Source: an uncultured Lachnospiraceae bacterium (GTDB lineage: Bacteria; Bacillota; Clostridia; Lachnospirales; Lachnospiraceae). Taken from it: a DNA stretch of 64,000 nucleotides. Made by a program: the position numbers and the translations under genes. The notes beneath the pieces were generated by a model, which saw nothing but the letters and a program-made list of their open reading frames with translations, searched no databases and was not told where the DNA came from. Shown piece by piece: positions 165 through 57,830 of the stretch; the first letter of the stretch is position 1; each line of letters starts with the position of its first letter. The DNA lies in contig CANSTU010000007.1 in assembly GCA_947650005.1 (NCBI GenBank), positions 1 to 64,000 of the forward strand, in the 5' to 3' direction.

Positions 165-2012
165 ATGAAAACAGGGATGCTTTGCTCCACCCGCTGGAGC
201 CATCAGGTGACAAATGAACAGGTATGGAAAGAATACCCTAGGCCCGCCATGGTCCGTTCCTCTTACTACAATCTGAACGGAGAATGGGACTATTGTTTTT
301 CCCGTACTACGCACAAACCGGAACATTTCATGGGCCGCATCCTAGTGCCCTTCTCTCCGGAAAGTCCTCTTTCCGGCGTTAAACGCCAACTTCTTCCTCA
401 TGAATTTCTGTGGTATCGCCGCCGTGCGCCCAGACCGTCCCTGAAAAAAGGCCATAGGCTGCTTCTCCACTTCGGAGCGGTTGACCAAAAATGCCGGATT
501 TTCATCGATGGGAAAACAGCCGGCAGCCATATTGGAGGATATCTGCCCTTTTCCTTGGATATCACGGACTTTCTGCCCGACGAAAACACTCCCGATTTTG
601 AACTGCTCCTGTGTGTACAAGATCTGAGCGATACCTCCTGGCACAGCCGCGGCAAGCAGAAGTTAAAACGAGGAGGCATGTTCTATACTGCCCAAAGCGG
701 AATCTGGCAGACTGTATGGATGGAGGAAGTCCCGGCTTCCCACATCTCCTCTGTCCGCATTACCCCGGACTTTGACCATGCCTGCTGCCGTATCCTGGTA
801 CATCTCACGGGAGATAAAAACGCCCCCCGCATCCTGCAGGCTTCCATACGGCCGGAAACAAAACAGGATGCGCTTCTGCGCGACCGCCCCTCGTTTCTCC
901 GCGGCCAAGCCCCGGACTCTGCCCTTTTTACCGTTTCCATCACTGCGGGCAGGGAAACAACCGTCTCCCTGCCCGATTTTCATCCCTGGACACCGGAGGA
1001 TCCCTTCCTCTACCACCTCACCCTGGAGACACAGGAAGACCGGGTGGAATGCTATTTCGCCATGCGCCAATGCGACATACGTACAGACAAACAGGGGCTC
1101 CCCAGACTATACCTAAACCACGTCCCCTATATGCAGACCGGTGTTTTGGACCAGGGCTATTGGCCGGACGGCCTCTACACCGCTCCCTGCGATGCGGCGC
1201 TTCAATACGATATCCTTACCATGAAAAGCTTAGGCTTCAACATGCTGCGCAAGCACATTAAAATTGAACCCCAGCGCTGGTATTACCACTGCGACAGGCT
1301 GGGCATGCTGGTCTGGCAGGACATGGTCTGCGGCGGCACTTCTTACCGCCACTGGTTTGTAACCTATCTTGCCACCCTTTTCAACGCCCTTCACCTCACC
1401 ATCCCGGATGGGCCGGCCAGTTACAGCCTCCTCTCACGTCGGGAAAAAGAGGGACGCAGGCAATTTTACCGCGAGATGAGAGACGCCGTCCGGACCCTTT
1501 TCAACCATCCTTCCATCGTCTGCTGGGTTCCTTTTAACGAAGGATGGGGGCAATTTGACGCCCAGAAAGCTGCCGACATTCTCCGTTCCCTCGATCCCTC
1601 CAGGCTGATCGACCATGCCAGCGGCTGGTTTGACCAGAAGGCCGGAGACCTGGCCAGCCTCCACTACTATTTCTTTTCCCTTAAAATACGCCCGGAAGCC
1701 GAACGCGCCCTGGCCCTTACGGAATTCGGCGGCTATACCTGGCATATCCCCCGCCACAGCTACAGCCGCAGACAATACGGCTACGGAAAATATAAGACCC
1801 GCGCCTCTTTGACCGCAGGATACCGAAAGCTCCTCACCCAAACCGTCCTTCCCGCCGTCAAAAGAGGGATCTCCGCCACTGTATACACCCAGCTGTCCGA
1901 TGTGGAAGACGAGGTAAACGGCCTGCTCACCTACGACCGGGAAATCCTGAAACCCGACGCTGACACAATCAGACACCTGAACCAGGCTCTCAAGGAGGCG
2001 CTCCGCCCCTAA
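165..2012 (+). CDS. Glycoside hydrolase family 2 protein (beta-galactosidase/glucuronidase-like)
   Basis: ORF with GH2 sandwich and TIM-barrel features (YYNLNGEWDYCF, GFNMLRKHIKIEPQRWYYHCDRLGMLVWQDM, WVPFNEGWGQFD, ALTEFGGY). Start at ATG 165 preferred over 150. Confidence 0.9.
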   Translation: MKTGMLCSTRWSHQVTNEQVWKEYPRPAMVRSSYYNLNGEWDYCFSRTTHKPEHFMGRILVPFSPESPLSGVKRQLLPHEFLWYRRRAPRPSLKKGHRLLLHFGAVDQKCRIFIDGKTAGSHIGGYLPFSLDITDFLPDENTPDFELLLCVQDLSDTSWHSRGKQKLKRGGMFYTAQSGIWQTVWMEEVPASHISSVRITPDFDHACCRILVHLTGDKNAPRILQASIRPETKQDALLRDRPSFLRGQAPDSALFTVSITAGRETTVSLPDFHPWTPEDPFLYHLTLETQEDRVECYFAMRQCDIRTDKQGLPRLYLNHVPYMQTGVLDQGYWPDGLYTAPCDAALQYDILTMKSLGFNMLRKHIKIEPQRWYYHCDRLGMLVWQDMVCGGTSYRHWFVTYLATLFNALHLTIPDGPASYSLLSRREKEGRRQFYREMRDAVRTLFNHPSIVCWVPFNEGWGQFDAQKAADILRSLDPSRLIDHASGWFDQKAGDLASLHYYFFSLKIRPEAERALALTEFGGYTWHIPRHSYSRRQYGYGKYKTRASLTAGYRKLLTQTVLPAVKRGISATVYTQLSDVEDEVNGLLTYDREILKPDADTIRHLNQALKEALRP

Positions 2013-2170
2013 AGCACAGCCGTTCTTTCCGTCCATCCCCACATGCTTCACGATATGATATTCACCGCTAAAGCGGCCTGAACCCATATCCCTGCTTTCC
2101 CGGCGGCCGCCCTCTTCCTTCTCACATCATTATCACCCAGGGCTATCCTTGTGTTTTCGAAAACCTAGCG

Positions 2171-2471
2171 CAGAGGAACCGCCTTTCAACAGCAGCTGCC
2201 CCAGCCTGCCGGGACTTTGCCCACAGTGAAACGGCCCAGGGAGAGGTGCGGAGGCCGTGCTATGTTTTTGAACGCATTTCACGCCATGGAGACGAGACAT
2301 GCTTCCCTGGAGGGGCGTTGCCCGACAGAAAAGCGGCCATGGCTCATCGAAACGCCCGACGCGACGGCGTTCAAAAACATAGCACGGGCTCCGCGCCTCT
2401 CCCTGGGCCGTTTTACTGCGGGCAAAGTCCCGGCAGACTGGGGCAGCTGCTGTTGAAAGGCGGTTCCTCTG
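2171..2471 (+). repeat. Long-inverted-repeat element copy 1: 105-nt arms (2171-2275 / 2367-2471) around a 91-nt core
   Basis: Arms align without gaps with 5 mismatches in 105. The core is homologous to copies at 33735-34056 and 57626-57830. Confidence 0.9.
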
Positions 2472-2483
2472 TAACCTCCCCCA

Positions 2484-2512
2484 TTGACACCCATCCCCAT
2501 CTATGCTATTCT
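2484..2512 (+). promoter_or_regulatory. Sigma70-type promoter for the T-box/proS transcript
   Basis: TTGACA (2484-2489), 17-nt spacer, TATTCT (2507-2512). Confidence 0.6.
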
Positions 2513-2619
2513 AGGAAAAATCGATGGAATCTGTGCGGACCAGTCGCCGTTTCCATCCATGTCCCGCCTCAGGCCCATTTTTATTTTGCCTGCTGCCCGC
2601 GGGAAAAGGCGTTGAAGGG

Positions 2620-2870
2620 AAATAGTAGCTATTCCGAATGGCACAGAGAGAAGGCGGCCGGTGCGAGCCTTTGCGGACGGAATAGTAAACCCCTCCCGGA
2701 GCTGTGGGCCGAACCATCCAGCATTTTATGGATGCCAAGTAAGCTTCACCGGGTTCTCCCGTGACAGAGAAAGGTATCGGGCTCTGTCCCCGTACCGTGA
2801 GTGCGGATTATTCCGAATTTAGGTGGTACCACGGACGTATACGTTCGCCCTAAGCTTATCTTTATGTTTC
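2620..2870 (+). promoter_or_regulatory. T-box leader of proS
   Basis: Stem I-like AGTAG...CAGAGAG...GGCCGGTG, and antiterminator T-box AATTTAGGTGGTACCACGG upstream of a tRNA synthetase. A CCC triplet near 2690 could be the proline specifier (inference). Confidence 0.8.
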
Positions 2871-3090
2871 TTAATTGTAGGACTTTCTTCAGAGGAATCC
2901 AAGGAAAGTTTTACACAAAGAGCGGGATAGGTGGAGGGCCTTTTTTATTTCCCGCAACTTACAACGCCGCCTGCGCAGAGAAAAATCGCTTTGCGGCGCA
3001 AACATCCTCTGAACGCACAGAAGGCGTCCGATGCGCATTCTGGCGATCGAGGCATTGGGGAAGCGTGAAAGTTTTTCAATTTTTCATTCA

Positions 3091-3173
3091 CCCTGATTGG
3101 TACACGCGCTGAAGCGCACAGATGGGATTACCCTGATTTGAGTGCGTGCCCTGCACGCAGATAGGAGTTAAGT
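3091..3173 (+). repeat. RBS-hairpin module, two tandem 40-bp units, directly upstream of proS start
   Basis: CCCTGATTGGTACACGCGCTGAAGCGCACAGATGGGATTA then CCCTGATTTGAGTGCGTGCCCTGCACGCAGATAGGAGTTA, followed by AGTATG. Confidence 0.75.
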
Positions 3174-4928
3174 ATGAAACTGTCAGCATTGACTGGGGAG
3201 CGTTTTCGGGAAACTCCCTCCGATTGTGTCATTGAAAGCCACGCTTTCATGCTCCGGGGAGGGTATATGAAATACGTTGCAAACGGAATCTATTCCGTTC
3301 TGCCTCCCCTGAAACGGATCACGGACAAAATTGAAAGAATCATCCGAGAGGAAATGGATGCCTTAGGCGGACAGGAGGTTTTATTTCCCGTAGCGCTCCC
3401 CGCATCCCTCTGGGAAGAATCCGGCCGTCTGCAGACCGTGGGACGGGAGCTTTTGCGCTTCACTGACCGAGGCGGCGCCGATATGGTTCTGGGGATGACC
3501 CATGAGGAAGCAGCCGTCCATCTGGTACGGGAATATGCCTCCAGCCATTCCCGCTATCCTTTCATGATCTATCAGATACAGACCAAATTCCGGGACGAGG
3601 CCAGGCCCAGGGCCGGCCTGATCCGGGTAAGGGAGTTTATCATGAAAGACGCCTATTCCTTCCATACCTCCCAAGAAGACCTGGATGCCTTCTATCAGCG
3701 CTGCCTGCAGGCCTATGAGCGGATTTTCGCCCGCGCTGGAATTCCTCAGGTAGTTTCTGTCGCCTCGGATTCCGGCATGATGGGCGGCAGCCTTTCCCAC
3801 GAATTCATGCTGCTCACCTCCGCCGGGGAGGACAGCATCGTCCTCTGCCCGCACTGCGGATACCGCGCCAATATGGAAGCCGCGGAATGCATCGTTTCGG
3901 ACACCCCAAATCAGACGATGCAGGAGCTAGCGCCCATACACACACCGGATATCTGTACCATTCAGGATCTGTGCAGCCATTTGGACATACCGCCCAAAAA
4001 CCTATGCAAAGCCGTTGTCTATCAAAGGAACCGGGACGATTCCTACGTGATCGTTTTTCTGCGTGGGGATTTAGAAATCAATGAAACCAAACTCACCAAT
4101 CTCCTCGGGGAAGGGATTCATCCTGCCCTAATTACGGAGGATAGCGGCCTGGAAGCCGGTTTCATCGGCCCCTGCGGCCTCTCCTGCGAGAATCCTTCTT
4201 CTCCGAATGCAAAGCACACCGTGCTCTATGACCGATCCCTGCAGGGATCCTGCGGATTGGCCTGCGGAGCCAATCGGAAAGACTTCCATTTCACCGGGCT
4301 TTGCATGGAAAGGGACTGCCCCGATGTATGCTATCACGACCTGGCAAAGGCCGTTTTGGGAGGGACCTGTCCTGCCTGCCGGAAAATCGGCATCAAGGTT
4401 TCACGAGGAATCGAAGTGGGCAATATTTTTCAACTGGGCGCCAAATATACCCACGCAATGCACATGCAGTACATGGATGAAAACGGCGCCCTCAGGGAAC
4501 CTCTGATGGGCTGCTACGGCATCGGCATCGGACGCCTCGCCGCCTCCGTCTGTGAGGCGTCCCACGACGAATTCGGCCCCATCTGGCCCATCAGCATCGC
4601 CCCCTGGCAGGTTCATTTATGCTGTTTGAGAAGCGACAACGAACACGTACATTCTCAGGCGGACAGCCTGTATAATATGCTGCAAGAACAAGGGCTGGAG
4701 GTTCTCTACGACGACAGGGCCGTCAGCGCCGGCGTCATGTTTTCCGACGCAGATCTTCTGGGCGTACCCATACGGCTCACTGTGAGCCCCCGCAACTATA
4801 AGGAAGGGTGCGTGGAACTCTCCCTGCGTCAGGATAAATCCATTTCTGCCAAAATCCCGATGGACGAAGTCCTTCTCCGTGTTATGGAAACGATAAGCAG
4901 GCTGAAGGAGGAGTGCCGTCCGGCCTGA
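3174..4928 (+). CDS. proS: Prolyl-tRNA synthetase (bacterial type)
   Basis: Full-length 584 aa with class II motifs (FRDEARPRAGLIRVREFIMKDAYSFH, GCYGIGIGRLAASVCE); T-box upstream. Confidence 0.97.
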   Translation: MKLSALTGERFRETPSDCVIESHAFMLRGGYMKYVANGIYSVLPPLKRITDKIERIIREEMDALGGQEVLFPVALPASLWEESGRLQTVGRELLRFTDRGGADMVLGMTHEEAAVHLVREYASSHSRYPFMIYQIQTKFRDEARPRAGLIRVREFIMKDAYSFHTSQEDLDAFYQRCLQAYERIFARAGIPQVVSVASDSGMMGGSLSHEFMLLTSAGEDSIVLCPHCGYRANMEAAECIVSDTPNQTMQELAPIHTPDICTIQDLCSHLDIPPKNLCKAVVYQRNRDDSYVIVFLRGDLEINETKLTNLLGEGIHPALITEDSGLEAGFIGPCGLSCENPSSPNAKHTVLYDRSLQGSCGLACGANRKDFHFTGLCMERDCPDVCYHDLAKAVLGGTCPACRKIGIKVSRGIEVGNIFQLGAKYTHAMHMQYMDENGALREPLMGCYGIGIGRLAASVCEASHDEFGPIWPISIAPWQVHLCCLRSDNEHVHSQADSLYNMLQEQGLEVLYDDRAVSAGVMFSDADLLGVPIRLTVSPRNYKEGCVELSLRQDKSISAKIPMDEVLLRVMETISRLKEECRPA

Positions 4929-5190
4929 ACTCGCATGGACAATGCCCAATCCGGGAATAACGGCCGCCCATGCATACCAAACGCATGAACGGTGCAGTCT
5001 GCTCCGCCATCTCTTCCCTGTCTGCTCCTAAACCGCAGGCGAACGCGGTAGCCTCCTTTTTGACCGAATCCTACCGCATTCGCCTGCAATCCGGGAGCAG
5101 ACAGGCAGAGACAGCGGGCACGGCCGAACCATGCGTCTGCCATTCCTCTATAGAAACGGATTCCTGTGGTCTCTCACCCCATTGTCTCCA

Positions 5191-5335
5191 TGACCCAATG
5201 CGCCAGAATCTCGCATCCCATTGCCCCCTTGGCTCAATGCGCCAGAATCTCGCACCCCATTTCCCCTTGGCTCAATGCGCCAGAATCTTGCACCCCATTT
5301 CCCCTTGGTTCAGTGCGCCAGAATCTCGCATCCCT
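5191..5335 (-). repeat. Four tandem 38-39 bp units derived from the 3' end of map
   Basis: CAATGCGCCAGAATCTCGCAYCCCATTKCCCCTTGG, with the shared CGCCAGAATC at 5201, 5240, 5278 and 5316. The unit includes the map C-terminal codons CEILAH-stop. Confidence 0.85.
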
Positions 5336-6182
5336 CTTCAGTCACCAGAATCATGGCCTCCCACTGGGCGGACGGCTTCCCGTCCTCCGTATAGACGGTC
5401 CATCCGTCCTCGTCATCCACATAGATTTCTGCCGTCCCCATATTCACCATAGGCTCAATGGTAAAAATCATCCCAGGAACCATCAACATTTCCGTTCCCT
5501 TCGGCGCCACATAACTGACAAAGGGATCCTCATGGAATTCCAGCCCCACTCCGTGGCCGCCGATCTCCTCCACCACGCTGTAACCGTTTAACTTTGCATG
5601 GCTATTCACCGCATCCGCCATGTCTCCCAAAAAGGCCCAGGGTTTCACCGCGGCGATCCCCTTCTCCATACACTCCCTGGCCACGCGCACCAAGCGCGCA
5701 TCCTCCTCCTTCACGTTCCCTATACAGAACATTCTCGACGAGTCCCCGAAATATCCCCCGTAAATCGTGGACACATCCACATTTACGATATCCCCGTCTT
5801 TCAAAACCACCTTTTCACTCGGAATGCCATGACATACCTGGTTTCCAACGGATGTACATACACTTTTAGGGAATCCGTCATAGCCCAAAGGGGCCGGTAT
5901 TCCCCCCAGTTCCCTCGTTTTCTCGTCTACCATCCTGTCTATCTGCGCCGTAGTCATCCCTTCGCAAATCTGTTGTCCTACATAATCCAGAATAGAGGTA
6001 TTGATCCGGCCGCTTTTACGGATTCCCTCGATCTGCTGCGCGTTCTTTATCATCCCGTATCCCGGCACCATATATCCCTGCAGCTCGTAGTGCCGGATTT
6101 TCTCGTCAAAAGCCGCATGACACTGCTTGTATTTCCTGCCGCTTTTACACCAGCAAGGATCGTTCCTTCCCATTTTTAACAT
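5310..6182 (-). CDS. map: Type I methionine aminopeptidase with N-terminal SEC-C zinc motif
   Basis: NDPCWCKSGRKYKQCH SEC-C motif; MetAP motifs GYDGFPKSVCTSVGNQVCHGIP, GHGVGLEFHEDP, FTIEPMV. Confidence 0.95.
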   Translation of the reverse strand: MLKMGRNDPCWCKSGRKYKQCHAAFDEKIRHYELQGYMVPGYGMIKNAQQIEGIRKSGRINTSILDYVGQQICEGMTTAQIDRMVDEKTRELGGIPAPLGYDGFPKSVCTSVGNQVCHGIPSEKVVLKDGDIVNVDVSTIYGGYFGDSSRMFCIGNVKEEDARLVRVARECMEKGIAAVKPWAFLGDMADAVNSHAKLNGYSVVEEIGGHGVGLEFHEDPFVSYVAPKGTEMLMVPGMIFTIEPMVNMGTAEIYVDDEDGWTVYTEDGKPSAQWEAMILVTEEGCEILAH

Positions 6183-8530: not shown

Positions 8531-8639
8531 CAAAGAGGCGCGCAGATGAGAGCACCCTGATTTGTCTGCCCGCTCAAGCGCGCAGATGGGATCGCCCTAA
8601 TTTATACGCGCGCTAAGGCGCGCAGATGGGAGCTAAATT
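8531..8639 (+). repeat. RBS-hairpin module, ~3 tandem ~40-bp units, upstream of SIMPL-domain gene
   Basis: CCCTGATTTGTCTGCCCGCTCAAGCGCGCAGATGGGATCG / CCCTAATTTATACGCGCGCTAAGGCGCGCAGATGGGAGCTAAATT-ATG, with a partial unit before them. Confidence 0.75.
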
Positions 8640-33734: not shown

Positions 33735-34056
33735 ACGCCAAACACAAAAACGGTTCGATAACACTCCCTTTGGGCCCCTCCCAGGATGCGGGTGGAAACG
33801 GTACGCTCCGGCACGATAGAAAGGGGGAGGTCATGGATCTTTTCAGGTGCCTTCATGCCATGAAGAGGAGACCTGCTTCCCAGGAGGGGCGCCCCCGACT
33901 GGGAGGCGTCCTGGGCTCCTCGGAATGTCGGGCGTGAGCGCGACCGAAAAGATCCATGGCTTTCCTCCTTTCTTCCGTACCGGAGCGTACCGTTTCCATC
34001 TGCATCCTGGAAGGGGCCCAAAGGGAGTGTTATCGAACCGTCCTTGCGTTTGGCAT
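33735..34056 (+). repeat. Long-inverted-repeat element copy 2: ~110-nt arms (33735-33844 / 33946-34056) around a ~101-nt core
   Basis: Arms ~89% identical by eye with one small indel; core homologous to copies 1 and 3. Confidence 0.9.
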
Positions 34057-34876: not shown

Positions 34877-35047
34877 AAACTCCCCTCTGCCCGCTTTAGC
34901 GGGCACTCTATTCAGGATCGGGAAATCTCTGATTTCACGTTAACTCCCCTCTGTCCACTTTTAGAGGGCACTCGCGTCAAAATTTTGATCCCATCCGCCT
35001 GCTGTGGCAGGCATACAAGTCTGGACCGGGAAATCGCAGATTTCATG
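34877..35047 (-). repeat. RBS-hairpin module array (about three units) between the two ABC permease genes
   Basis: Minus strand: GTGCCCGCTAAAGCGGGCAGAGGGGAGTTT, GTGCCCTCTAAAAGTGGACAGAGGGGAGTTAACGTGAAATCAGAGATTTCCCGATC, GCCTGCCACAGCAGGCGGATGGGATC. Confidence 0.7.
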
Positions 35048-35851
35048 TTAGCCGCCCTGAACCACCACTCGTTTCAGGGCACAGCCCATGCAGATCCTTC
35101 CTAAAAGATAGAGCGCCGCCAGCCAGAACAGTTGAAATACGATGCCCCACACCGCCTCCATCCCGTTAACCGTTCCTGCAAAAATCTGCAGAGGCATATT
35201 CTGCATGGCGGCAAAAGGAAGCAGCTTCACCACTGCCAGGATCTTTTCCGGAAAGAATACCAGAGGGATTTCCCCTCCGGAAAGAAAGGATACCACGGCC
35301 GTCACGATGATCCGCACGCCCCGCTGGGAAATGATATAAAACAGGGAAATATACATGAGCATGGCAAATGCCACCACCACCAGAAAGGCCAACAAAGCGG
35401 ATAGGAGAAATAGGGCCAGCTGCCAAACCGGAATCTGCAGGGTGAGCCGGTAAGGTTTCGGCATGAGAGCCGCCAGAAAGACGAGAGGCAGACAGTTTAC
35501 GGCCGTGAATGCCACGCGGTTGGCCGCTGACTGGCTGAACCATTTGCCGTACAGCCCGATGGGCCGCACCAAGTCATATACCACGGCGCCGCTGCTGATC
35601 GCAGTATAGATCTCTTCGTCTGAGAATACCACGGTGAACAGAATAATGATGATCTGCCGCATCCATACATAGGATACGAGTTGAGAAAACTCCATGGGCA
35701 GGCGGAGCGCATCCGTGCGGTAGATCGCCGCATATACCAGTATTTCCATTATGCCAAACACATAATTTTTCAGGATATGCCCGATCAGCGCTCCCCGATA
35801 TTGCAGGCTGTTGATAAAACGGATCCGAAATAGAGAAGCATATTTTTTCAT
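35048..35851 (-). CDS. ABC-2 type transporter permease
   Basis: Multi-TM protein translationally coupled to the ATPase gene. Confidence 0.88.
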   Translation of the reverse strand: MKKYASLFRIRFINSLQYRGALIGHILKNYVFGIMEILVYAAIYRTDALRLPMEFSQLVSYVWMRQIIIILFTVVFSDEEIYTAISSGAVVYDLVRPIGLYGKWFSQSAANRVAFTAVNCLPLVFLAALMPKPYRLTLQIPVWQLALFLLSALLAFLVVVAFAMLMYISLFYIISQRGVRIIVTAVVSFLSGGEIPLVFFPEKILAVVKLLPFAAMQNMPLQIFAGTVNGMEAVWGIVFQLFWLAALYLLGRICMGCALKRVVVQGG

Positions 35852-36868: not shown

Positions 36869-37000
36869 ATCCTAACTCCCATCTGCCTGTTTTAGCAGGT
36901 AGACAAATCGTGATCCGGTAATCGCTGATTTCACACGCTCTCCCGCTTGCCCGCTTTAACGGACACCCAAATCATGATCGGGTAATCGCTGATTTCACGC
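36869..37000 (-). repeat. RBS-hairpin module array (two ~65-bp units) upstream of the ABC ATPase gene
   Basis: Minus strand: GCGTGAAATCAGCGATTACCCGATCATGATTTGGGTGTCCGTTAAAGCGGGCAAGCGGGAGAGCGTGTGAAATCAGCGATTACCGGATCACGATTTGTCTACCTGCTAAAACAGGCAGATGGGAGTTAGG. Confidence 0.75.
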
Positions 37001-37724
37001 TATTTTCCAAATATTGATGGATCATTCCCCTGATCTCGTTGCTGCGCGCGCGCCCCAGCGAAAAACGTTCCCCGTTTTGCATCACCAGTTCCCTTACCGT
37101 CACGCGTTTCATCTTTTCCGCGTTGATCACAAGCCCTCTGTTCACCTGTATGAATTGCGCATGGCCTTTCAGTTCCTTTTGAACCATATAGAGAGATCTG
37201 CGTTCAGAGATCTCCCGATAGGTTCCCGGCGTTTCCTCCAGAATAAAAACCGTATTTTTGGCTCTCTTTTCGATGTATACAATGTCGTTGATCCTTACCT
37301 TCTCTATATGTTCCGGCGTATGGATGAGATAGTACTTCTTTCTGTTTTCAGCCAGTACGTTCCGAGCCCTCGAAAGAAAAGCATCCCATACCTCGTCCAT
37401 ACTGTTCTTCAGCAGATAGTCAAAAGCATGCACCCGATAACCATCCAGGGCGTATTCTGGACGGGCAGAGACGAAAACGAGAGGCATTCTGCTGCCTCCC
37501 GCTCGAAGTCGTTCCGCCAGTTCTATCCCCGGCGTCTCCGGCATTTGTACCTCCACAAAGCACAGGTCATATGTGCTTCCCTCTTCCAGGCTCTTTAGAA
37601 ATTCGGAGGCGCGTTCACAGATCACGGCTCTTGCCTGTTCTCCCCATTCCGATTCTTCTTCGACTTTTTTTCGTAATCTCTGTGCAAATTGCAGGTCATT
37701 TTCAATCACCGCGATCCTGTACAT
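36972..37724 (-). CDS. LytTR-family response regulator
   Basis: REC-like N-terminus (RIAVIENDLQFAQRL, FVEVQMPETPGIELAERLR), LytTR domain (IVYIEKRAKNTVFIL, FIQVNRGLVINAEKMKRV). Confidence 0.9.
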   Translation of the reverse strand: MYRIAVIENDLQFAQRLRKKVEEESEWGEQARAVICERASEFLKSLEEGSTYDLCFVEVQMPETPGIELAERLRAGGSRMPLVFVSARPEYALDGYRVHAFDYLLKNSMDEVWDAFLSRARNVLAENRKKYYLIHTPEHIEKVRINDIVYIEKRAKNTVFILEETPGTYREISERRSLYMVQKELKGHAQFIQVNRGLVINAEKMKRVTVRELVMQNGERFSLGRARSNEIRGMIHQYLENSVKSAITRS

Positions 37725-44000: not shown

Positions 44001-45251
44001 ATGATTATTGACAGCGCGAAATTAAACGGCCCCTGTTCCTGCGGCAGAAGCCATGAAATGGTAACAAAAGAAGCCGTCATCGAGCCCGGCTGCATGAAGC
44101 GGCTCGACCAATATACGGCCAAATACGGCCTCGCCGGAAAATGTGCGGCCATCTATGATGAGAATACCTACCACGCCCAAAATGGTATCCACCCTTCCGT
44201 CGACCAGGAAATCATCCTGAATCCGGAAAATTTGCATGCCAATGAGATCGCCGTAGGCAAGGTGCAAGAGCAGCTGGCAGAGGATATCGATTATCTGATC
44301 GCCGTGGGAAGCGGAACCATCCATGATACCACGCGCTACTGTGCCAACCAGAGGGGAATCCCCTTTATTTCCTGCCCAACCGCGGCCAGCGTGGACGGAT
44401 TCTGCTCCACCGTCTCCGCCATGACCTGGAAGGGCTATAAGAAAACCATGCCCGGCGTTGCTCCCGTTTTCGTCCTGGCAGACATCGATATCATTAAGGA
44501 GGCCCCTCTCCATCTGGCGCTCAGCGGAGCAGGAGACATTTTCGGGAAATATACGGCCCTGGCAGACTGGGAGGTCGCCCATGCCCTCACCGGAGAATAT
44601 CTGTGTCCCGAAATCGAAAGGATGACGCGGGATGCAGTGGAAGCCGTTACTTCCTGCTGCACCGGGCTCGTTGCAAAGGAGGAAAAGTCCTTTGAACAGC
44701 TTACATACGGTCTGATTCTTTCCGGCCTTGCCATGCAGCTCATGGGAAATTCCCGTCCCGCCTCAGGCTGCGAACACCACGTTTCCCACCTCATCGAGAT
44801 GGGTCCCGCCGCATTCCCCTTCCGCTCCGACGCCCTGCATGGGGAAAAGGTGGGTGTGGGAACCATTCTCGCCTCTCGGGCCTATCATGAATTGGCCGAG
44901 ATCAAAGATATCCGTCCCCATGTACATCCCTATGCATTCCCTGACCAGACCGAGCTGGAGCCCTTTTACGGAACCGCACTCTATCCCTCCGTGGTGGAGG
45001 AAAACACGCCGGACTGCATGAAAGATGTGACTCCGGAAATGTTAGTCGCTGCCTGGCCCAAAATCCGGGAAATCGTTTCCTCCATCCCAACGGCGGAGGA
45101 ACTGGACAATTTATATCAGAAAATCGGGGCGAAATGCACTCTAGAAGATATCCAGGTTCCCTCCGACAGTCTGGAGGATCTACTCCATTTCTCCCCCAGC
45201 GCGCGCAACCGGCTCACACTGATGAGGGTGCGGTGGATGATTTCACGCTAA
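44001..45251 (+). CDS. sn-glycerol-1-phosphate dehydrogenase (AraM/EgsA family)
   Basis: AVGSGTIHDTTRYCANQRGIPFISCPTAASVDGFCSTVSAM, SGAGDIFGKYTALADWE. Confidence 0.9.
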   Translation: MIIDSAKLNGPCSCGRSHEMVTKEAVIEPGCMKRLDQYTAKYGLAGKCAAIYDENTYHAQNGIHPSVDQEIILNPENLHANEIAVGKVQEQLAEDIDYLIAVGSGTIHDTTRYCANQRGIPFISCPTAASVDGFCSTVSAMTWKGYKKTMPGVAPVFVLADIDIIKEAPLHLALSGAGDIFGKYTALADWEVAHALTGEYLCPEIERMTRDAVEAVTSCCTGLVAKEEKSFEQLTYGLILSGLAMQLMGNSRPASGCEHHVSHLIEMGPAAFPFRSDALHGEKVGVGTILASRAYHELAEIKDIRPHVHPYAFPDQTELEPFYGTALYPSVVEENTPDCMKDVTPEMLVAAWPKIREIVSSIPTAEELDNLYQKIGAKCTLEDIQVPSDSLEDLLHFSPSARNRLTLMRVRWMISR

Positions 45252-45428
45252 CTCCTGTCGGCCCGCTTTAGCGGGAGTTTTCACAATATGGAGCGGACAC
45301 GCAATAGACCGCTATGGTAATTATGACAACTTTTCCATCGCTGTCTATTGCGTGAATTTCCTAGTTTCTAACGGTTCTATTCCATCCGAAGCTATTTTTC
45401 TCGCATGCCTTATGCTGTTGCCAGATTC

Positions 45429-48811: not shown

Positions 48812-48814
48812 CTT

Positions 48815-48995
48815 TAACTCCCATCTGCGCGCTTTAGCGCACGTACAAATCAGGGGAAGGGAAAGATTTGATCAATCTTTCACTCCTTCCATCTATGTTA
48901 CCCTTCCTGCCCGCTTTATCGGGCGCTCTCACCAAAATCGAGAAATCGACGCCTTCACGCTAACCTTCCCGACGCGTCCTTTCATGCAGGCAATT
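48815..48995 (-). repeat. RBS-hairpin modules (about three units) upstream of the GH4 gene
   Basis: Minus strand: CTGATTTGTACGTGCGCTAAAGCGCGCAGATGGGAGTTAAAGATG, and an upstream GCCCGATAAAGCGGGCAGGAAGGGTA unit. Confidence 0.7.
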
Positions 48996-56324: not shown

Positions 56325-57251
56325 TCAGATCAAGGAATACCCGCGGACTTTTTTTGAAATCCAGTTTACAAGACCCAGCATAAAGATACTTACCACGGAC
56401 TTGAGCATACCGATTACGATGGAATAGGAATACAGCCCCGCCCTGAATGCAATCTTGTATACATAGTAATCGAGAACCTCGATCCTGTCCGACACCATGC
56501 TGCTCCAGAAAACATAATACTGTTCAAACCCGTTGCTCAGTAAATTGCTGATGCTAAGAAGCAGCAGTACCAGAAAGGTAGGCATGATCCCCGGAATCGT
56601 GATGTGCCTGATCAGCTGAAGCTTATTGGCTCCGTCCACCTTTGCCGCATCATAAAGCTCCGCGTCGATGCCCGTTATCGCCGCCAGGTAGATGATGCTG
56701 TCCCAGCCCAGGTTCTTCCAGATACTGAGAGCCAGTTGAAATCCCCATACATGCTCCCCGTCTGCGATCAAGCCTCCAGGAGAGGTCGGTAAATGCAGCA
56801 TTCCCAGAATCTGATTAAACAGCCCGTGCGCCGAAAAAACAGTGAACGCCACGCCGAACACCACGATCCAGCTGATAAAATTGGGCAGCGTAGCCACCGT
56901 CTGCACCACCTTCTGCGTCCTCTTCCCGCGTATCTCGTTCAGCATGATCGCAAATGCCACGGGAAGCGGCGACGCCGCCAGATTCAGAAGGCTCATAGCC
57001 AGTGTGTTACGCAAGACCCGGATGATCTGATCATCCTGAAATAATCGGATGAAATTCTTCATGCCCACGAACTTCGCATCCGTGTAAAACTGCCCCACCT
57101 TATAATCTGCAAAGGCATAATACCAGCCCAGAAGAGGCGCATAAGAAAAGGCAAAAATAAAAACCATGAACGGTATTGCCATGAACAGATATCTTATCCC
57201 CCGCCTCTTATGGCCATCCATTTTCCCCCATACCACTGATCTTTTTTTCAC
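56325..57251 (-). CDS. Carbohydrate ABC transporter permease (LplB/YtcP-like)
   Basis: YDAAKVDGANKLQLIRHITIPGIMPTFLVLLLL. GTG start after GGGAGTTCAT preferred. Confidence 0.92.
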   Translation of the reverse strand: MKKRSVVWGKMDGHKRRGIRYLFMAIPFMVFIFAFSYAPLLGWYYAFADYKVGQFYTDAKFVGMKNFIRLFQDDQIIRVLRNTLAMSLLNLAASPLPVAFAIMLNEIRGKRTQKVVQTVATLPNFISWIVVFGVAFTVFSAHGLFNQILGMLHLPTSPGGLIADGEHVWGFQLALSIWKNLGWDSIIYLAAITGIDAELYDAAKVDGANKLQLIRHITIPGIMPTFLVLLLLSISNLLSNGFEQYYVFWSSMVSDRIEVLDYYVYKIAFRAGLYSYSIVIGMLKSVVSIFMLGLVNWISKKVRGYSLI

Positions 57252-57252
57252 A

Positions 57253-57292
57253 TGAACTCCCATCTGCCCGCCTTGGCAGGCGCTCAAATCAA
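57253..57292 (-). repeat. RBS-hairpin module upstream of the ABC permease gene
   Basis: Minus strand: GATTTGAGCGCCTGCCAAGGCGGGCAGATGGGAGTTCAT-GTG. Confidence 0.75.
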
Positions 57293-57625: not shown

Positions 57626-57830
57626 GCCGGAGAGGCGAATCCCGCGGCAGGAGAGAGGCGGCGACGCCCTATTTTTGAGTGAATTTCGCGCCCTGTAAAT
57701 GAGACCTGTTTTCCTCGAAAGCCGTTTCCCTACAGGGAAGCGTTCAGGGCTCATCGCATTGTCCGGCGCGATGGCGCTCAGAAACAGGGCATGGCCGCTT
57801 CGCTCTTGTCACGGGACTCGCCTCTCCGGC
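57626..57830 (+). repeat. Long-inverted-repeat element copy 3: arms 57626-57692 / 57765-57830, decayed outer extension to ~57610-57846
   Basis: CCGGAGAGGCGAATCCCGCGGCAGG...GCCCTATTTTTGAGTG pairs with CGCTCAGAAACAGGGC...CACGGGACTCGCCTCTCCGG; core homologous to copies 1 and 2. Confidence 0.85.

Follow-up and report, generated by a model that had tools for sequence, protein, structure and literature searches.

A mobile fold-back hairpin with a conserved core at its tip, probably a MITE-like element of Lachnospiraceae

In the 64,000-nt stretch of DNA analyzed here (the window), positions 2171–2471 form a long hairpin, and the questions raised are what kind of element this is and how its arms stay complementary. 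As first described, a left arm (2171–2275) and a right arm (2367–2471) of 105 nt each, 95% complementary (inverted repeat I1), enclose a core of 91 nt (2276–2366). The core is matched by covariance model R2 at 2257–2387 (100 bits, E = 3.8e-29) and is conserved in related genera. The initial annotation placed further cores near 33.85 and 57.69 kb, and copies 2 and 3 are indeed located there, both as inverted repeats and by the covariance model. In copy 2, the arms (33737–33828 and 33963–34054; repeat I2, 92 nt, 89%) flank a core at 33831–33961 (R2, 91.7 bits, E = 1.8e-26). In copy 3, degenerate arms (57626–57679 and 57777–57830; repeat I3, 54 nt, 81%) accompany a core at 57664–57794 (R2, 81.3 bits, E = 3.7e-23). 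All three are on the + strand, and they are the only matches of the window to the core model. The RNA folding z-scores against shuffled sequence are −24.6, −23.8, and −9.95 for copies 1, 2, and 3, respectively.

Copy 1 sits between the preceding gene and the T-box leader (2603–2855; Rfam RF00230, 98.5 bits) that lies 5′ of proS, and the promoter-like site announced upstream of proS is present at 2484–2512. The outer arms had been thought not to match between copies. This is incorrect: throughout the genome the arms are homologous but strongly diverged, and copy 1 aligns with C15:41502–41792 over 7–295 at 72% identity.

The host genome is assigned to the genus Eisenbergiella (Lachnospiraceae), as its genus includes a genome with loci identical to those of Eisenbergiella tayi DSM 26961; it comprises 3.59 Mb in 138 contigs, with the window on contig C7. 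The census of this genome (G000; other G and L codes denote the genomes and loci compared) is based on searches, with 47 matches by blastn and 94 by the covariance model, the latter counting reverse-strand matches and partial ones at contig ends. Distinct cores obtained as sequence number at least 66, which is a lower bound because at least 12 contig ends fall within the core. Lachnospiraceae bacterium CE91-St56 (G012, AP025576.1), of the same genus, yields 37 distinct cores and 44 covariance-model matches; the other genomes of the genus have 11 (G003), 10 (G001), 2 (G002), or, in eight of them, none. The wider covariance-model search proposed by the initial annotation does return homologues: Related cores occur in 22 of 397 Lachnospiraceae genomes, corresponding to 18 of the 334 genera sampled. 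Among 394 genomes sampled across the class, the positives are all Lachnospiraceae, with no core in any other sampled family. The plasmid, phage, and viral-contig collections searched gave no match to the element.

Against all Rfam families, no match of the element reaches the gathering score, whether in the window, in copy 1, or in ten loci of relatives. The known RNA classes initially put forward for comparison (skipping-rope, ROOL, GOLLD, OLE, and HEARO) are all excluded by this search. Sub-threshold matches to miRNA families and to TD-2 (32 bits for a cut-off of 48.7) align generic stems only. The absence of coding potential also holds, with no ORF belonging to any copy. A coding core was considered, with ATGs in one frame, and rejected: Many copies have TAG as the first NAG codon, and the CE91-St56 cores run into a TGA after ~10 codons.

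The ends of the element are best seen in CE91-St56. There, the element is ~256 bp long, starts with the terminal inverted repeat CTCAAACTTCGCAGG, and ends with its complement. Exact 7-bp flanking duplications, mostly T.....A, are found in 22 of its 41 elements (mean 0.8 and maximum 4 with shuffled pairing). At locus L069 of this genome, the relative G003 (L034) keeps the corresponding intergenic sequence; the element is absent from this site, and the target sequence is present only once. Shared insertions were considered for L034/L069 and for L062/L301; once aligned, each pair proves to be two separate insertions within one intergenic region. In G211, the copies are ~281–284 bp long, with a different terminal repeat (TAGGCAATTGCGAAAC) and duplications of ~11 bp. 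Since both the ends and the lengths of the duplications differ between G012 and G211, the same core is present in two dissimilar shells. Core-free elements of 28–90 bp with the G012 ends also have 7-bp duplications, so that the core is either dispensable for mobility or lost afterwards through hairpin deletion; internal deletion of the hairpin is a plausible origin of these short forms.

The arms in the window's genome form inverted repeats that lack a clear common end, and target duplications are mostly unrecognizable, with only two 7-bp candidates (about chance level), which would fit older copies. No autonomous insertion sequence with a transposase was found beside the G012 terminal repeats examined, and none is present among the end pairs listed for G211 and G427. 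A single transposase does not explain two shells with differing ends and duplication lengths. In CE91-St56, ~4 of 19 Rpn-like genes (PDDEXK_2 / Transposase_31) are located no more than ~0.7 kb from an element end, above expectation (L220, L086, L223, and G012:C1:875388). Such PDDEXK/Rpn-like genes are not required as mobilizer: The window's genome has ~66 elements but only one weak PDDEXK_2 match and no Transposase_31.

The elements are thus short, without a transposase gene, and bounded by terminal inverted repeats, with target duplications in G012 and G211, as in miniature inverted-repeat transposable elements (MITEs). The suggestion of a hairpin-type mobile DNA, made from the window, is supported by the dispersed copies, the terminal repeats, the fixed-length duplications, and the pre-insertion intergenic form surviving in a relative. 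In integrons, the attC site functions as a folded single strand that carries extrahelical bases; in the present case, neither an integrase nor a gene cassette is seen. A transposon of folded single-stranded DNA, of the IS200/IS605 or attC type, in which the core would be the hairpin that a Y1 transposase or a tyrosine recombinase recognizes, would agree with a conserved folded tip containing extrahelical bases and with the divergent core pairs of some genomes. We consider it improbable, because such systems are not known to produce target duplications of fixed length, here 7 bp and ~11 bp, or to have true terminal inverted repeats.

How the arms stay paired is a separate matter. In the window's genome, the arms have a median length of 93 bp and a maximum of 152 bp, and arms of at least 40 bp free of mismatches and gaps are present in 18 of 59 intact copies; the complementarity in other copies often exceeds that of copy 1. 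The initial annotation argued that arms that differ between copies yet stay complementary imply selection on pairing. A role for independent compensatory mutations, selected for pairing of RNA or DNA, could be read into the mismatch-free arms of at least 100 bp and into the two-sided changes of the core helices described below, but the comparison of related copies makes it very unlikely. Among 13 near-identical copies of CE91-St56, 12 arm changes are mirrored in the opposite arm and 17 are one-sided; independent mutation, at the rate estimated from the one-sided changes, would give well under one mirrored change in that set. When the set is widened to 20 copies, the counts are 94 mirrored and 22 one-sided. 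At the orthologous insertion L187/L357, where the flanks are 91%–92% identical, 7 of 7 differences in the ~21-bp arm, counted by hand on the alignment, are mirrored, and one of these is an indel. At another orthologous site, L285/L288, the flanks are 97% identical, and the two copies have the core between their arms in opposite orientations; L008/L268 is possibly a further case of inversion, with arms too diverged for certainty.

The mismatches themselves point the same way. In the arms of the window's genome, there are 47 G–T and 74 A–C mismatches in total; with the core-proximal stem left out, 27 G–T and 68 A–C remain, the reverse of what is expected for pairing in a + strand RNA. Judged from the mirrored substitutions, the mirrored indel, and the inverted core, the arms are kept paired by copying or recombination between them at the DNA level, and not by compensation in RNA.

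Two side observations concern mutation in the arms. The excess of A–C over G–T outside the core-proximal stem (68 vs. 27 in the G000 arms, read on the + strand of the core) suggests strand-asymmetric mutation. At L187/L357, the arms differ at about one-third of positions and the flanks at ~8%, which suggests that the arms are mutation hot spots.

The core is built of a short helix, an asymmetric internal loop (ATGNA / GGAATGTCC), a helix GATGAG/CTCATC, and a terminal helix. In the terminal helix, the sequence varies freely, the bulge is conserved, and a tandem G·A, read by inspection, occurs in many lineages. Many unpaired positions of the core are invariant across genera. In 22 diverse cores from across genera, 29 of 37 pairs have changed on both sides, and the covariation score is 0.558, versus at most 0.16 when slid. 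The covariation that the initial annotation called for as a check on a structured RNA is therefore there, but it does not discriminate: Arm-to-arm copying of DNA yields the same signal, so that any test of the R-scape type is confounded by compensatory changes that the copying itself creates. A selected core fold draws its support instead from the conservation of unpaired bases across genera and from the tandem G·A; for unpaired bases to be conserved, a folded or bound form must be under selection.

That form may be RNA or DNA. The main rival to a folded DNA is a structured noncoding RNA (a trans-acting sRNA or a cis element), transcribed and dispersed by MITE-type mobility, comparable to the pneumococcal BOX elements, with arms that protect or present the core. 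The unpaired motifs, the tandem G·A, and the helices of variable sequence are what such an RNA would show, and in the core-proximal stem of the window's genome G–T exceeds A–C (20 vs. 6), which favors a + strand RNA there. On the other hand, the core helices P1b, P2, P3, and P4 of the 22 diverse cores contain 510 Watson–Crick cells with only 6 G–T and 9 A–C, whereas a small tRNA control of only four genes has 7 G–T and no A–C in 48 pairs. Moreover, the orientation relative to the neighboring genes is near random (60 opposite and 36 codirectional, a modest excess of opposite), the sole promoter-like site within 2000–3200 is outside copy 1, and Rfam offers no match. The near-absence of G–U pairs is nonetheless compatible with RNA, because DNA copying could also clean the inner core helices. 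We regard the RNA reading as possible but rather doubtful, and a folded DNA recognition module is slightly favored because the core helices are nearly free of G–U pairs.

The element is probably a non-autonomous, MITE-like mobile DNA in the form of a long fold-back hairpin, with arms that are copied or recombined one from the other and with a core at the tip that would be recognized in folded form. In such an element, a transposase supplied in trans would cut the ends; the arms would be copied by template switching in replication (quasipalindrome correction) or exchanged by intramolecular recombination; and, upon extrusion of the hairpin or cruciform, or upon transcription, the ~70-nt tip core would fold. 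Recognition of the folded core by a mobilizing or host factor would then be the reason for its retention. More tentatively, these elements could form a new class of mobile elements, in which the hereditary core is not a protein gene but a conserved folded nucleic-acid module that moves between unrelated terminal-repeat shells within the Lachnospiraceae, a self-correcting DNA hairpin whose folded form a dedicated factor recognizes.

Comparison with known systems gives partial likenesses. With MITEs in general (reviewed in PMC10969869), the elements share small size, lack of ORF, terminal inverted repeats, target duplications, intergenic location, and many copies. They differ by ~100-bp arms kept near-perfect through arm-to-arm copying, by a folded core whose conservation extends over 18 genera, and by the occurrence of this core in two shells that differ in their ends and duplication lengths, with no parent insertion sequence found. 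The BOX repeats of Streptococcus pneumoniae (PMC3049150) are likewise dispersed and intergenic, with a conserved RNA-like structure and no known transposase of their own. Compared by description and not by alignment, the present element has no modular boxA-B-C arrangement but one long hairpin with a conserved tip, and it is found in a different host family. REP and REPIN sequences with tyrosine transposases (PMC2817692, PMC3116915) are palindromic and numerous as well, and they sometimes occur as inverted pairs; REPs, however, measure 20–40 bp and the elements here ~250–300 bp with target duplications. Quasipalindrome correction by template switching, a known process in E. coli, perfects imperfect inverted repeats (PMC7202029) and predicts mirrored substitutions and indels like those observed. 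It is described as mutation at resident palindromes; in the present case, an entire family of mobile elements would be shaped by it.

The novel features are a folded core conserved family-wide, its presence in different shells, and the concerted evolution of the arms. Neither an Rfam family nor a paper in the open library, an incomplete one in which an earlier description may be missing, was found to describe this element family. With their high copy number, the elements are a record, in nature, of how the arms of palindromes copy each other, at a scale for which reporter genes are the usual means of study. They also carry a warning for the discovery of structured RNAs, as "compensatory" covariation in long hairpins can stem from DNA copying and mislead. 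Finally, this apparently undescribed repeat family breaks the genome assemblies of common gut bacteria.

Other repeats and arrangements were seen. Divergent pairs of cores ~300–750 bp apart are present in Clostridiaceae bacterium C65_88 (L122, L138, L144, and L160) and in G267 (L327–L329). In these pairs, every hairpin carries arms of a sequence of its own, and the same arm cassettes of C65_88 recur among different pairs. In the window, a ~38-nt unit (CCCATTGCCCC...CAATGCGCCAGAATCTCGCA) is repeated four times in tandem at 5178–5342. A second, unrelated family of ~58–64 nt (CTGCCCGCTTTAGCGGGCA...GGGAAATCGCTGATTTCAC) is dispersed at 34880–35052, 36876–37004, 45237–45286, 48813–48964, and 57242–57291, and inverted at 3114–3153 and 8538–8637. 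Elsewhere in the window's genome, stretches resembling this ~58–64-nt repeat adjoin the hairpin elements.
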